Shown in pieces: positions 18,985 to 26,150 of a stretch of 64,000 nucleotides of DNA; the first letter of the stretch is position 1; every line of letters starts with the position of its first letter. A program made the position numbers and the translations under genes. The stretch comes from Gemmobacter lanyuensis (lineage in GTDB: Bacteria; Pseudomonadota; Alphaproteobacteria; Rhodobacterales; Rhodobacteraceae): the NCBI RefSeq assembly GCF_014652355.1, contig NZ_BMYQ01000004.1, positions 124,001 to 188,000 of the forward strand, given 5' to 3'. The notes below the pieces were generated by a model. That model ran no database searches. It was not told the origin of the DNA and worked only from the letters and a program-made list of their open reading frames with translations.

Positions 18985-19929
18985 TCAGCGCCAGCTGAAG
19001 AACCCGGACGGAGCCTGCGAAAGCAGGCTACGGGCCAGATCGGCCCCCATCGCGGCGGCGTCGGCAATGCTGCTGCGCGCCTCGCCGACGATGACCTCTG
19101 ACCCGTCGGGGCGCAGGATTTCGCCGCGCAGCCAGACCTGATCCCCCTCGAGCAGGGCCAGCCCCGCAATCGGGGTTTCGCAAGACCCGTCGAGCGCGGC
19201 CAGAAAGGCGCGCTCCGCCGCAAGGCGCTGGCCTGTGGGCGTATCATGGATCGCGGCCAGCATCGCGGCGGCGCGGTCATCCGCGGCGCGGCGTTCGATG
19301 CCGATGGCCCCCTGCGCCACGGCGGGCAGCATCTCTTCTACCGCGATAGCCGATCGCGCGACCTGCGCCATGCCCAGACGGTTCAGGCCCGCCATGGCAA
19401 GGAAGGTCGCAACCGCGACTCCATCTTCCAGCTTTTTCATCCGCGTCTGCACATTGCCGCGGAACTCGACCAGGTTGAGGTCGGGGCGGCGATGGGCCAG
19501 CTGCGCGCGGCGACGCAGGCTCGACGATCCCACGGTCGCACCTTGGGGCAGATCGGCCAGCCGTTCCACCAGAGGCGAGACGAAGGCATCGCGCACATCT
19601 TCCCGCGGCAGGTAGCAATCCAGCAGCAGGCCGTCCGGCTGGGCCACCGGCATGTCCTTCATCGAATGGACGGCAATGTCGATGGCACCGGCCAGCATCG
19701 CCTCTTCGATTTCCTTGGTGAACAGACCCTTGCCGCCGATCTCTTTCAGCGGGCGGTCCAGCACGCGGTCGCCGGTCGTCTTGATGACCACGATCTCGAA
19801 CGCTGCCTCGGGCAGGTCGAAGGCCGCCATCAGGCGGCTGCGCGTCTCATGGGCCTGGGCAAGCGCCAGCGGGGAACCGCGGGTGCCGATCTTCAGGGGT
19901 TCGGCGGGGGAGGGGAGCGTGATCGTCAT
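18985..19929 (-). CDS. hemC: Porphobilinogen deaminase (hydroxymethylbilane synthase)
   Basis: Joins four porphobilinogen molecules into hydroxymethylbilane. 314 residues. KIGTRGSPLALAQ near the N-terminus is the family signature; DGSCETPIAG contains the cysteine (about C250) that anchors the dipyrromethane cofactor. ATG at 19929 is preferred over an in-frame TTG two codons upstream, with AGGA about 10 bases before. It is followed on the chromosome by hemE in the opposite direction. Confidence 0.96.
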   Translation of the reverse strand: MTITLPSPAEPLKIGTRGSPLALAQAHETRSRLMAAFDLPEAAFEIVVIKTTGDRVLDRPLKEIGGKGLFTKEIEEAMLAGAIDIAVHSMKDMPVAQPDGLLLDCYLPREDVRDAFVSPLVERLADLPQGATVGSSSLRRRAQLAHRRPDLNLVEFRGNVQTRMKKLEDGVAVATFLAMAGLNRLGMAQVARSAIAVEEMLPAVAQGAIGIERRAADDRAAAMLAAIHDTPTGQRLAAERAFLAALDGSCETPIAGLALLEGDQVWLRGEILRPDGSEVIVGEARSSIADAAAMGADLARSLLSQAPSGFFSWR

Positions 19930-20020
19930 GGCCAAGTCCTAGCCGTGCCGGGGCAATGTTTCAACGGCTCTTGCGTCGCACCCCCTTTGCGCGGGGCGGG
20001 GGCGCGGCTAGAACGGCGGC

Positions 20021-20326
20021 ATGACCCTGTCTTTCCTGATCGCCCTTGCCTTGCCCCTGCTTCTGGTGGCCCTTGCCCTTCGGATCGAGGCGGGCGCCAT
20101 CCGTGACCGCATCTCGGGCGGCAACGGGCTGATGCTGCTGGCGGCTTTTGTGGTTTCGGTCGGGATTGCGCTTCTGTCCGTGGGGCTTGTGGCCTTCCTG
20201 CTGGGCAGCAAGGCGGCGGTTGGCCTCGGCGCGCTGCAAATCACGCTGCTCGCGGGGCTTTGGCAGTGCAGCCATTGGCACCTGCGGCGGGTGATCGCGC
20301 AGGGCCGCGACAATCGCCGCGCTTGA
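20021..20326 (+). CDS. Small hydrophobic membrane protein, unknown function
   Basis: 101 residues with probably three membrane segments (about 3-20, 37-63 and 70-85) and a basic C-terminus ([16 protein letters not shown]). I do not recognise the family. It lies between hemC (divergent) and hemE (52 bases downstream, same direction). The Shine-Dalgarno is weak. Position suggests joint expression with hemE, but an inverted repeat between them could give hemE its own control. Confidence 0.6.
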
Positions 20327-20348
20327 CTTCGCAGGGCGGGCAGTCAAG
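20322..20348. promoter_or_regulatory. Inverted repeat upstream of hemE
   Basis: CTTGACT-N13-AGTCAAG, 7-bp perfect arms, begins at the stop codon of the small membrane protein and ends 30 bases before the hemE ATG. The left arm contains TTGACT, which could be a -35 element. It may be an operator or a hairpin; no known factor is assigned. Confidence 0.35.
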
Positions 20349-20378
20349 TCAGAGCCATCAGGAAAGAGGACGCGACCC

Positions 20379-21410
20379 ATGACCGACAAGACCATCCTCC
20401 GTGCGCTGAAGGGCGAGGTTCTGCCGACCCCGCCGATCTGGATGATGCGTCAGGCCGGGCGCTATCTGCCGGAATATCGCGCGACGCGCGCGCAGGCGGG
20501 CGATTTCCTCTCGCTCTGCTATAATCCCGAACTCGCGGCCGAGGTCACGCTGCAGCCGATCCGCCGCTACGGGTTTGATGCGGCGATCCTCTTTGCCGAT
20601 ATCCTGCTGATCTGTCAGGCGCTGGGGGCAGACCTGTGGTTTGAAACGGGCGAAGGCCCGCGCTTGTCCACCATCACCTCGGCCGCTGATCTGGCCCGGC
20701 TGAAGCCCGCGCGCGCGATCCATGATCGCCTTTCGCCGGTCTATGAGACGGTGAAGATCCTGTCCCGCGAATTGCCGCGCGAAACCACGCTGATCGGCTT
20801 TGCCGGGGCGCCCTGGACGGTGGCGACCTATATGATCGCCGGACGTGGCACCAAGGATCAGGGTCCGGCCCATGCGCTCAAGTCCGCCGAGCGCGCGACC
20901 TTTGCCGCGCTGATCGACCTGATTACCGAGGCGACGGTGGATTACCTGTCGGAACAGGTGAAGGCCGGGGCTGAGGTCGTAAAGCTGTTTGACAGCTGGG
21001 CGGGCAGCCTGAAGGGCGAGGATTTCACCGATTTTGCCGTGAAACCCGCCGCGCGGATCATTTCCGAACTGAAGGCCCGCCACCCCGGGCTGCCGATCAT
21101 CGCCTTCCCGCGGGAGGCGGGGCAGGGCTATGTCGGCTTTGCCAAGGCCACCGGCGCCGATTGTGTGGCGCTGGACAATTCCGTCAGCGCGGATTGGGCG
21201 GCGGCCCATGTGCAGGTTGACGGCTGTGTGCAGGGCAACCTTGCGCCCGACCATATGGTCACCGGGGGCGAGGCTCTGGTGCGCGAAACCCGCCGCGTGG
21301 TCGAAGCCTTCCGCAAGGGGCCGCATATCTTCAACCTTGGCCACGGGATCACGCCGGATGCCGATCCGGAAAACGTGCGCCTCATGATTGAAACCGTGCG
21401 CTCGGCCTGA
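20379..21410 (+). CDS. hemE: Uroporphyrinogen decarboxylase
   Basis: Removes four carboxyl groups from uroporphyrinogen III to give coproporphyrinogen III, the substrate of HemF and HemN encoded nearby. 343 residues, normal. The N-terminal signature [17 protein letters not shown] (about 14-30) and the second signature region [15 protein letters not shown] (about 138-152) are both present. AAAGAGGA gives a good ribosome binding site. Confidence 0.97.
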
Positions 21411-22738: not shown

Positions 22739-23077
22739 TTACAGGCCCGGCAGGCCCATCTTTTGGAGCTGCGCCAAGGCCGCCTCGGCCCCGTCGCAGG
22801 TTTTCAGCCGCACGGCAACCTGGCTTGCATAGCCAAAACGCCCCGCCTTTTCCGGCCGCAGCGTGACCAGAAGGTCGGTGCCTTGCGTGGCGACAGCGGC
22901 AATCGCGTCTTCGGCGCCAAAATCTTCGTCATTCACCTCAAACCACACCGCGCCGCCGCCAACGGGCTGGCGGAACAGGGCATAGTTTTCCTCGCGGCCA
23001 TCGACAAACCCAACGAAAACCGCGCCCTCTTCGGTGGCGACGGTCGCATAGGCGGCCTTTACGACAAGTTCGCTCAT
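22739..23077 (-). CDS. Conserved hypothetical protein downstream of hemF
   Basis: 112 residues, mixed alpha/beta pattern without signal peptide or membrane segment. It starts 19 bases after hemF in the same direction with AAAGGG upstream, so it is likely cotranscribed. I do not recognise a domain. The KTCDGAEAALAQLQ stretch near the C-terminus has one cysteine but no metal motif. Confidence 0.65.
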   Translation of the reverse strand: MSELVVKAAYATVATEEGAVFVGFVDGREENYALFRQPVGGGAVWFEVNDEDFGAEDAIAAVATQGTDLLVTLRPEKAGRFGYASQVAVRLKTCDGAEAALAQLQKMGLPGL

Positions 23078-23096: not shown

Positions 23097-23957
23097 TTAG
23101 TACCATTTCGCGATGGGCGGCAGGCTCATCAGCACGGCATCGGCATTGTGGCCTGTTTCCAGCCCGAATTTCGTGCCCCGGTCATAGACAAGGTTGTATT
23201 CGGCATAAAGCCCGCGATGGCGCAGCTGGGCCTCGCGGTCATCGTCCGAGGCGGGGGTGCCAAGGCGCCGTTCCGTGACCGGCAGGAAGGCCGGCAGGAA
23301 GGCGCGGCCCACGTCTTGGGTAAAGGCGAAATCCGCCTCCCAGTCGCCGGTGTTCAGATCATCATAGAAGATCCCGCCGACACCCCGCGCACGGCCCCGA
23401 TGCGGGACAAAGAAATAGTCGTCGGCCCAGGCCTTGAAGCGGGGGTAGTAATCGGGCGCATGGGCATCACAGGCCGCCTGAAGGGTGGCGTGAAAATGCG
23501 CGGTATCCTCGGGGTATTCCAGACAGGGGTTCAGGTCCGCGCCGCCGCCGAACCACCAGGCATGGGGTGTCCAGAACATGCGGGTATTCATATGCACCGC
23601 CGGGGTATGGGGGTTCTGCATATGCGCGACAAGACTGATGCCGCTGGCCCAAAAGCGCGGGTCATCGGCCATGCCCGGCACACCGCGTGCAGCCATCGCC
23701 TTTTGCGCGCGTTCACCCAGCGTGCCATGCACGGTCGAGACATTGACCCCGACCTTTTCGAACACCTGCCCGCCGCGCATCACGCTCATCAACCCGCCAC
23801 CACCGCTTTCGCGGGTGGTGGGGGTTACCTCGAACCGCCCGGCGCGGTCGCCGCCAAAGCGGTCTTCCAGCGCCTCGAAGGCGGTGACGATGTCATCGCG
23901 CAGGCTGCGGAACCAGTTGGCCGCGCGGTCCTTGCGGGCGGCGAAATCATCGGACAT
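23097..23957 (-). CDS. hemF: Oxygen-dependent coproporphyrinogen III oxidase
   Basis: Aerobic counterpart of HemN: converts coproporphyrinogen III to protoporphyrinogen IX with oxygen. 286 residues. Diagnostic blocks are visible: HMQNPHTPAVHMNTRMF, FGGGADLNPC and RGVGGIFYDDLN. The start at 23957 (MSDDFAARKDRAANW) follows AGGAGAGG; an upstream in-frame extension to 24020 overlaps the SDR gene and is discarded. It lies 16 bases after the SDR gene and probably shares its transcript. Confidence 0.96.
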   Translation of the reverse strand: MSDDFAARKDRAANWFRSLRDDIVTAFEALEDRFGGDRAGRFEVTPTTRESGGGGLMSVMRGGQVFEKVGVNVSTVHGTLGERAQKAMAARGVPGMADDPRFWASGISLVAHMQNPHTPAVHMNTRMFWTPHAWWFGGGADLNPCLEYPEDTAHFHATLQAACDAHAPDYYPRFKAWADDYFFVPHRGRARGVGGIFYDDLNTGDWEADFAFTQDVGRAFLPAFLPVTERRLGTPASDDDREAQLRHRGLYAEYNLVYDRGTKFGLETGHNADAVLMSLPPIAKWY

Positions 23958-23973: not shown

Positions 23974-24780
23974 TTAATGGGCGGGCGTCGCCACGGGGTC
24001 GAGCAAGCTGCGCCCGCCATCCAGCGTCAGCACCTGACCGGTCATGAACCCCGAGGCATCCGAGGCCAGATATTGCACCGTTTCCGCCAGTTCCGCCGCC
24101 GCCGCAATGCGGCCAAGCGGCGTGCCCGCAGTGATGGCCGCGCGGCAATCGGGGGTTTCCTTGATCTGGGACAGAAGGCTCGCGCTCATCACCGACCCTA
24201 CGGCTATGGCATTGACGCGAATGCCCCGCGGCGCCAGTGCCAGTGCCATGCTGCGGGTCATCTGATCAATCCCGGCGCAGGCGATGGAATAGCCCAGCAG
24301 CTCGGGCCGGGTCTGGCGCGACACGATCGAGGACAGGTTGATGATGCTGCCCGCGGGCGTGCCCGGTTCTGCCCCTTCGGTCTGGGCGATCATGCGTTTG
24401 GCGCAGAGCTGGGCCAGGCGCAGGCTGCCCAGCAGGTTTTGCTGCAGCATCTGCTCCACCCCGTCATCCTCGCTTGCCAGTGGGTCGGACAGGATCACCT
24501 GCCGCGTCGCGTTCACCAGAATATCCACCCGTTCAAAGGCATCCATCGTGGCCGAGAGCAGATTGGTGATCGCCAGCTTCTGCCGCAGATCCCCGGCAAA
24601 CAGCCGCACCGGCCCTTCGGCCCGGGCCTCGGCGCCGATTTCATCGACCAGCCGGTCCTCGTCGATATCGGCGAACATCACATTCGCGCCCTTGTCGACA
24701 AAGTGACGCGCGATGGCGAGGCCGAACCCATTGGCGGCGCCGGTGACGATGGCGGTCTTGCCTTGAATGGAAAGGGACAT
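23974..24780 (-). CDS. Short-chain dehydrogenase/reductase with altered catalytic motif
   Basis: 268 residues, Rossmann fold with TGAANGFG (about 13-20) for NAD(P) binding, NAT in place of the usual NAG (about 90-92), and the dimer/substrate half in normal order. The serine region IINLSS and a tyrosine (YSIACAG, about 165) are present, but the YxxxK lysine is cysteine. That residue normally binds the nicotinamide ribose and lowers the tyrosine pKa, so standard activity is doubtful. It lies upstream of hemF in the same direction, and after the RsmC-like gene. A C-terminal 12-residue tail follows the LDGG element. Confidence 0.85.
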   Translation of the reverse strand: MSLSIQGKTAIVTGAANGFGLAIARHFVDKGANVMFADIDEDRLVDEIGAEARAEGPVRLFAGDLRQKLAITNLLSATMDAFERVDILVNATRQVILSDPLASEDDGVEQMLQQNLLGSLRLAQLCAKRMIAQTEGAEPGTPAGSIINLSSIVSRQTRPELLGYSIACAGIDQMTRSMALALAPRGIRVNAIAVGSVMSASLLSQIKETPDCRAAITAGTPLGRIAAAAELAETVQYLASDASGFMTGQVLTLDGGRSLLDPVATPAH

Positions 24781-24792
24781 GGGGGCTCCGGG

Positions 24793-25776
24793 TCAGCGAC
24801 GAACGGGATAGGAGGCGCGGGTGACCCGGAAGGCACCGTCGCCGCCGACATCCTCGATCTCGCGGAAGAGGGCGCGCAGGGCGGGGTCGTAGGGCAGGTG
24901 GCGGTTCCACACAACCCAGAGCGACCCATCGGGGGCCAGCATCTTGGCCGCCGCCCGCAGGAAGGCCAGCCCCAGCGCGGGGTCGGCATCGCGCCCGGTG
25001 TGGAAGGGCGGGTTGCAGACCACCGACCCCGCCAGATGCGGCACCTGCCAGGTGGTCGCATCGGCCCAGTGGAACTGGGCGCGGTCGTCGGTCACATTCT
25101 GGCGCGCGCAGTCCAGCGCGGCCAGCTCTGCCTCGACCAGGTGCAGCTCTTTCACGCCAGCGCGGGTCAGGATGTGGCGCGACAGATACCCCCAGCCCGC
25201 GCCCAGATCGACAACGCGCGAGGGGAACTTGGCCGGCAGCGCCGCAGCCAGAAGCGCGGATCCCCGATCCGGCCCATCGGCGGAAAAGACGCCCGGGGCG
25301 GTCACAAACCCCTCGACCTCGGCCACAGTCCCGGCCCAGTCGGTCAGGGCATTGCCCGCAGGGAAGCTGAAGATCTTGCCATGCGCTTTTGCCATCGCCT
25401 CGGACACGGCAACCCGACCGCGCAGATCCTTATACACCGCATCGACGCCATCGGTCTTTTGTCCATCGACCACCACCGGCGCACCGTGGGGCAGGGCGGC
25501 ACAGGCCGCGGCCAGCAGGGCGCGGGCCTCGGCCTTGGCGCGTGGCAGGCAGACCAGCGCCGCGGCAAAGGCGCCCTCGACCGCCGTCGCGCAGGCATAG
25601 CCGCGCGCGGTGAACCAGTCGTGATCGGGCCGGAAGCCGGTGATGACGGTCACGCGGTCTTTCGGCAGATCCGACAGATCATCCCCGCTGCGGGGGCGGA
25701 ACACCGCGATGCGGCCTTCGGTGGGCAGGGAAATCGCGCCGGAATCCAGCGCAAGGGCAAGGCGGGCAGATCGCAT
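24793..25776 (-). CDS. RsmC-like class I methyltransferase (rRNA guanine-N2 type)
   Basis: 327 residues from ATG 25776. The N-terminal half resembles the degenerate methyltransferase domain of RsmC; the C-terminal half has the SAM motif VVDLGAGWGYLS (about residue 192) and the catalytic NPPF (about 255), which marks base-amino methyltransferases. The likely target is guanine N2 in 16S rRNA (G1207 in E. coli). No good ribosome binding site is seen, so TTG at 25800 remains possible. It ends 12 bases before the SDR gene. Confidence 0.85.
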   Translation of the reverse strand: MRSARLALALDSGAISLPTEGRIAVFRPRSGDDLSDLPKDRVTVITGFRPDHDWFTARGYACATAVEGAFAAALVCLPRAKAEARALLAAACAALPHGAPVVVDGQKTDGVDAVYKDLRGRVAVSEAMAKAHGKIFSFPAGNALTDWAGTVAEVEGFVTAPGVFSADGPDRGSALLAAALPAKFPSRVVDLGAGWGYLSRHILTRAGVKELHLVEAELAALDCARQNVTDDRAQFHWADATTWQVPHLAGSVVCNPPFHTGRDADPALGLAFLRAAAKMLAPDGSLWVVWNRHLPYDPALRALFREIEDVGGDGAFRVTRASYPVRR

Positions 25777-25829
25777 GTCGGGCTGTAGCAGGGCAGCCAA
25801 GGCGGCCCGGTCCTATTTTCCGGGGCCGG

Positions 25830-26150
25830 TCATTCCTTCTCCATCGTGCATTGCAGCGGATGCTGATGCCGACGCGAGAAATCCATCACCTGGGCCACCT
25901 TGGTTTCCGCCACCTCGAAAGAGAACACGCCAACAACGGCAAGCCCCTTCTTGTGGACGGTCAACATGATCTCGAACGCCTGCGCGTGGTTCAGGCCGAA
26001 AAACCGTTCGAGGATATGCACCACGAATTCCATCGGGGTGTAATCATCGTTCAGCAGCAGCACCTTATAAAGCGGCGGGCGCTGCGTGCGCGTGCGGGTC
26101 TTCGTCAGGATCGAAGCATCCGATCCATTCCCATGGTCTTTGTCGGACAT
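25830..26150 (-). CDS. clpS: ATP-dependent Clp protease adaptor ClpS
   Basis: 106 residues. The core [20 protein letters not shown] (about 30-49) is the ClpS signature with its N-degron-binding acidic and hydrophobic residues, followed by a His near [13 protein letters not shown]. It delivers proteins with destabilising N-termini to ClpAP. The open frame extends far upstream to 26927, antisense to the HAD gene, but only the part from the MMSD double methionine looks real (26153 or 26150). clpA is not in the window. Confidence 0.95.

Follow-up and report, generated by a model that had tools for sequence, protein, structure and literature searches.

What can an SDR still do once the catalytic Lys of its YxxxK motif has gone, and why would such a protein be retained? 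The question is raised by a gene of Gemmobacter lanyuensis, a member of the Rhodobacteraceae, within a stretch of 64,000 nucleotides that is referred to here as the window. A sequence-only reading had noticed that the motif of the encoded protein reads YSIAC, with a Cys at the site of the Lys, and translation of the gene indeed places Y164-S-I-A-C168 at this site.

The window protein and its motifs

The window protein is classed as a classical SDR by its Pfam matches (Table 1). Its AlphaFold2 model (mean pLDDT 93.8, pTM 0.92) superimposes on solved SDRs with VIA-align Z values of 33.8-35.7 among the 50 matches listed, e.g. 4npc_A with a Z of 35.7 and an rmsd of 1.7 over 248 residues, and the modelled fold is that of a standard SDR. 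All parts other than the Lys had been described as intact, which is correct for the Gly-rich motif TGAANGFG, for Ser151 (located 13 residues N-terminal of Tyr164), for Asn115 and for the C-terminal LDGG, but not for the NNAG and P-G motifs, both of which are altered and had been overlooked. Strand 2 ends with D38, and under the established SDR rules an acidic residue at this place is of the NAD(H) type. The gene had further been judged not to be decayed, which agrees with the open frames and with dN/dS values of 0.011-0.151 among the 40 closest pairs listed; such pairwise values point to an SDR that is kept by purifying selection.

Table 1. Coordinates of the SDR, its motif and tetrad positions and the neighbouring genes in the window. 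Clade counts refer to aligned rows unless stated otherwise.
Feature	Position	Strand	Remarks
SDR, 268 aa	23974..24780	minus	open reading frame; PF13561 E=2.2e-47, PF00106 E=6.9e-35
Gly-rich cofactor motif T13-G-A-A-N-G-F-G20, kept	24721..24744	minus	clade: G14 149/149, G18 148/149, G20 150/150
D38, acidic, end of strand 2	24667..24669	minus	clade 144/150; outgroup 26/26
N90-A-T-R93 replacing NNAG	24502..24513	minus	R93 in 142/150 clade rows; outgroup G/A/S 26/26
N115 of N-S-Y-K tetrad, kept	24436..24438	minus	clade 149/151
S151 of tetrad, mostly kept	24328..24330	minus	S 181, T 12, C 4, A 4, G 1, N 1 (203 distinct sequences)
Y164 of tetrad, mostly kept	24289..24291	minus	Y 183, F 11, L 8, W 1, H 1 (204 distinct sequences)
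C168 at catalytic Lys site	24277..24279	minus	Lys 0/211 loci; outgroup K 24, Q 2 of 26 sequences
V194-G195 replacing P-G motif	24196..24201	minus	P at 194: clade 5/152 rows, outgroup 26/26
RsmC-like MTS-domain methyltransferase, upstream neighbour	24793..25800	minus	PF05175 E=9.2e-41
clpS, further upstream	25830..26150	minus	ClpS-like translation; name and start codon inferred from translation
hemF, oxygen-dependent coproporphyrinogen oxidase, downstream	23097..23957	minus	PF01218 E=6.2e-93; NF003727 above cut-off

Absence of the catalytic lysine across homologues

A match to the SDR is present in 373 of 395 sampled Rhodobacteraceae genomes (E<=1e-50), and residue-level reading covered 134 of these 373, namely the own genome, the genomes at the top of the list, 30 with low scores, another 60 from the list and 14 others. 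Scanning the named genomes with six peptide patterns yielded 73 loci, comprising 72 orthologues and L073, a gammaproteobacterial SDR with Lys that was omitted from the clade counts. Since one of the six patterns (ACAGIDQM) includes the Cys, a bias is possible in the 72 pattern-found loci taken by themselves; Lys is equally absent from the 139 further loci, which were found by whole-protein similarity rather than by residue 168. The two genome collections may share species, and the number of distinct sequences (204) is therefore given beside that of the loci (211), which include three partial ones (L070, L071 and L131) that all cover position 168. The 30 low-scoring family matches were re-read, and none of them has Lys at position 168, while a renewed search of 20 of the 22 non-matching family genomes revealed a divergent member (L141) in G049 only. 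Class-wide, 33 of 386 genomes gave a match at E<=1e-38. Six of these belong to the Rhodobacteraceae, and of the remaining 27 genomes, 24 were read; other families of the class account for 24 of the 26 outgroup sequences.

With the window gene left aside, position 168 is occupied by Cys at 95 loci, Ser at 41, Thr at 39, Ala at 21, Asn at seven, Met at six and Val at two, and by Lys at none of the 211 homologous loci (204 distinct sequences). The alignment of homologues that had been suggested as a check thus gave a divided answer, in that the absence of Lys is shared, but the Cys is not conserved and Cys168 is no special residue. A function of Cys168 as a new catalytic nucleophile is ruled out by the same count, as the Cys is found at 95 of 211 loci only.

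In a tree of 205 proteins, built by a quick method and rooted at the midpoint, 145 clade rows fall on one side of a branch with an SH-aLRT support of 98, and within this tree the Lys-free clade has one origin. The deepest branches of the clade are formed by loci L140 and L141, followed by L126, L137 and L138, all of which are without Lys168 and also without Arg93. The catalytic Lys would have been lost in or before the common ancestor of one Rhodobacteraceae SDR clade. Two outgroup SDRs from the same class (family f117; L192:1477-2286 and L193:1480-2289) carry a Gln at the Lys site, and L193 in addition has Phe for the catalytic Tyr. Because both fall inside the outgroup, their Gln looks like a second, separate loss of the Lys. 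Their sisters L190:808-1620 and L206:1393-2193 (support 88) have kept the Lys, but their catalytic Tyr is replaced by Phe.

Cofactor site, catalytic residues and possible function

The Gly-rich loop, D38, D64 and N115 are kept in the clade. Ranked by entropy, G14 (rank 3), G20 (rank 4), G18 (rank 20) and D38 (rank 44) are among the less variable positions of the clade, whereas S151 and Y164 hold ranks 103 and 86 (45 and 71 in the outgroup) and position 168 holds rank 207 of 268 (55 in the outgroup). Given the low ranks of the Gly-rich loop and D38 and the higher ones of S151, Y164 and position 168, the pattern is what would be expected, short of a proof, if the cofactor site were still used and the proton relay were nonessential. 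Furthermore, D, E, K, R, Q and H do not occur at position 168 in any of the 152 clade rows, while all 27 sites of similar entropy hold some of these residues, with a mean share of 0.39; this comparison was set up with the residues already known.

As Lys is missing from every clade member read (0/211), the earlier proposal of a pseudo-enzyme or a non-standard mechanism names the right class of explanation. Within this class, we assign a probability of about 0.6 to an NAD(H)-binding SDR that lacks ordinary catalysis and serves as a scaffold or sensor subunit. The Lys-free SDR would then be retained for a role that is independent of ordinary SDR hydride transfer. It would probably still bind NAD(H), if perhaps less firmly owing to the altered NNAG loop; Tyr164 presumably could not be activated in the usual way without the Lys. 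A scaffold or sensor role would most likely be exerted by joining another protein. Candidate partners are SDR paralogues with catalytic activity, with which mixed oligomers could form, and proteins outside the SDR family, e.g. the methyltransferase of the adjacent gene, which would then be joined in the way that human SDR5C1 joins TRMT10C. Counting against a pseudo-enzyme is that Ser151 and Tyr164 are both retained in 167 of 204 distinct sequences (each in ~90%), a degree of conservation beyond what a pseudo-enzyme free of all catalytic constraint would require. Moreover, some activity could persist after a catalytic residue has been lost.

Several known systems can be set beside the window SDR. 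The PRK07231 SDRs (NF005559) provide the NCBIfam model with the highest score for the window protein as well as for the five outgroup proteins scanned, and have the fold and the Gly-rich loop in common with the window protein. They differ in that the window SDR is missing the catalytic Lys and has altered NNAG and P-G motifs; with 187.5 bits it stays under the NF005559 cut-off of 215 bits, whereas the five outgroup proteins exceed it (231.5-263.9 bits), including L192 with its Gln for Lys. BbsC is a non-catalytic SDR partner. In the heterotetrameric SDR BbsCD (PDB 7pcs), BbsD belongs to the closest folds to the window SDR among the matches listed (Z 34.8). In the window, however, the SDR gene has no second SDR gene as its immediate neighbour. 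SDR5C1 (HSD17B10) is the non-nuclease subunit of the human mitochondrial tRNA methyltransferase and RNase P. In one study, mutation of its matching Lys (K172A) completely abolished the dehydrogenase activity, yet the variant remained able to support tRNA methylation and cleavage by RNase P (PMC3526285), so that the dehydrogenase Lys is dispensable beside a methyltransferase; in the present case, too, the neighbour found most constantly encodes a methyltransferase. By contrast, SDR5C1 keeps its own Lys and is an active enzyme too, and the methyltransferase is a candidate partner of the window SDR by its gene order. No description of a Lys-free SDR of this kind was present among the titles and abstract beginnings listed in literature searches, the scope of which also included passages on BdcA (PMC4171110) and on plant SDRs (PMC3541173).

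The joint retention of Ser and Tyr, together with the kept cofactor loop, would also fit a protein that is still a redox enzyme, in which another residue, most likely Arg93 of the rebuilt NNAG loop, provides the positive charge for orienting the nicotinamide ribose and for lowering the pKa of Tyr164. The equivalent of NNAG reads N-[A/G]-x-R in the clade, where Arg93 is present in 195 of the 203 distinct sequences with a residue at this position and replaces the Gly, Ala or Ser of the outgroup; at position 91, Asn is found in 25 of 26 outgroup rows, but in 0 of 150 clade rows, of which 119 have Ala. Such a relocation of a catalytic charge is comparable to the With-No-Lysine kinases. We nevertheless regard it as unlikely, since the deepest branches mentioned above are without both Lys168 and Arg93, so that the loss of the Lys seems to precede the gain of the Arg, unless the Arg was lost again, and since Tyr164 itself is replaced by Phe, Leu, Trp or His in 21 of 204 distinct sequences. 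A bolder form of the proposal, in which the loss of the Lys was followed later by Arg93 taking over the binding of the cofactor ribose and the activation of the Tyr, so that the protein would be a "with-no-lysine" SDR and a widespread oxidoreductase of the Rhodobacteraceae, appears rather improbable.

Non-redox chemistry is known on the SDR fold from the halohydrin dehalogenases, which are described by the motifs S-X12-Y-X3-R and T-X4-F/Y-X-G (PMC11976700). Like the window SDR, they represent an SDR frame with an altered catalytic Lys, and a non-redox enzyme built on this frame could be envisaged for the clade. However, the dehalogenases have Arg at the Lys site and are without the Gly-rich nucleotide motif, whereas the Lys-free clade has Arg at none of the 211 loci and has kept the nucleotide loop, with G18 in 148 of 149 rows, and we regard a non-redox enzyme as very improbable. 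Identity with a halohydrin dehalogenase is ruled out directly, as no locus has the Arg of S-X12-Y-X3-R and the site of the aromatic residue is G18 in these 148 rows.

Gene neighbourhood and the proposed link to haem

The most constant neighbour of the SDR gene is the MTS-domain methyltransferase, which is located upstream in 190 of the 206 loci whose upstream flank measures 500 bp or more; the copy in the window scores 81.2 bits against the NCBIfam RsmC model and is thus under the cut-off of 295. At the other 16 loci no methyltransferase was found within ~1.5 kb of flank by tblastn at E<=1e-5, a search that a diverged copy could escape. The SDRs encoded at these loci are less similar to the window protein (39-53% identity). 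At three of the loci clpS is located upstream, and 15 of the 16 were inspected and have neighbours that differ from those of the window except for clpS. An acyl-CoA-synthetase-like neighbouring frame is shared by L124, L125 and L133, and a purH-like one by L126 and L137 (both named from translations). A match to the ClpS-like stretch of the window is present in the flanking DNA at 63 of 72 loci.

The relation of the two genes was also followed in genomes without the SDR. In 19 SDR-less family genomes, the methyltransferase is present in 13 and missing in six, while among 10 SDR-bearing genomes searched alike it is present in nine and missing in G376; G049 is also without it. The lower share in the SDR-less genomes suggests some joint loss of SDR and methyltransferase, but the methyltransferase appears to have no strict need for the SDR, since it is present in 13 of the 19, and an obligate tie between the two is weakened.

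Downstream, the in-frame ATG of hemF lies 16 bp past the stop codon of the SDR gene, in agreement with the earlier observation that the SDR precedes hemF in the same direction. On this ground a link to haem synthesis had been suggested, and the SDR could be imagined as a regulator of haem synthesis or as an accessory factor acting with hemF. The 72 pattern-found loci bear this out in part, since 52 of them have hemF downstream in the same orientation, and a wider set gives the same arrangement for 141 of the 210 loci whose downstream flank is 1.1 kb or longer (of the misses, 51 have less than 3 kb of flank). On the other hand, hemF follows directly in only 20 of the 72 and at a distance of 200-1100 bp in 32, while 18 loci have no hemF although their flanks extend over 3 kb or more (in two others the flank is too short). 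In 30 of the 32 spaced loci a lipoprotein-like motif (like C-G-T-P-Q-E) intervenes on the opposite strand, the low-identity SDR members have other neighbours, and hemF is still in place downstream of the methyltransferase in eight of the 13 SDR-less genomes that have the latter. Gene order across loci and SDR-less genomes thus weakens a functional tie to hemF, the proximity of the two genes looks like local synteny more than a haem connection, and we give little credence to a haem factor. The least tenable explanation, a private mutation, a sequencing error or decay, has nothing but the odd motif itself in its favour and is opposed by the open frames and purifying selection, while mutation and error in particular are ruled out by the fact that homologues with a normal YxxxK, the finding that would have spoken for them, do not occur inside the clade (Lys 0/211).

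The motif belongs to a small putative lipoprotein encoded on the opposite strand between SDR and hemF (L001:4305-4739 and the same place in other loci), for which the 16-bp gap in the window leaves no room. Following hemF, the window encodes a 112-aa protein (22739-23077, minus strand) that has no NCBIfam match; in some relatives, the flanking DNA contains a tblastn match to it. Furthermore, hemC-like and hemE-like open reading frames, named from their translations, are located near hemF (18985-21410), so that haem genes appear loosely clustered in the window.

Lysine-free SDRs in the same genome and annotation

The notable point is the family-wide retention of the Lys-free version of the SDR. 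Two plasmid records annotate the gene simply as "SDR family oxidoreductase", which is misleading if the protein is a pseudo-enzyme; in that case, the gene encodes a widespread protein of ecologically important bacteria with a role that can be tested. Should the protein have remained an enzyme, it would illustrate how an SDR functions without its lysine. Lys-free SDRs as such are not unique and are less unusual than they seem at first sight. In the own genome 34 SDR-like places were found, and profile alignment shows the Lys to be missing at the aligned position in three of them, namely in the window gene, in L302 and in L309. According to this alignment, L302 (G000:C7:94600-95700) has an Asn at the Lys site (YTTAN), L309 (G000:C14:68250-69350) has an Arg at the Lys site and no Tyr at the usual place, and the paralogue L079 has kept the Lys within the sequence YNASK.
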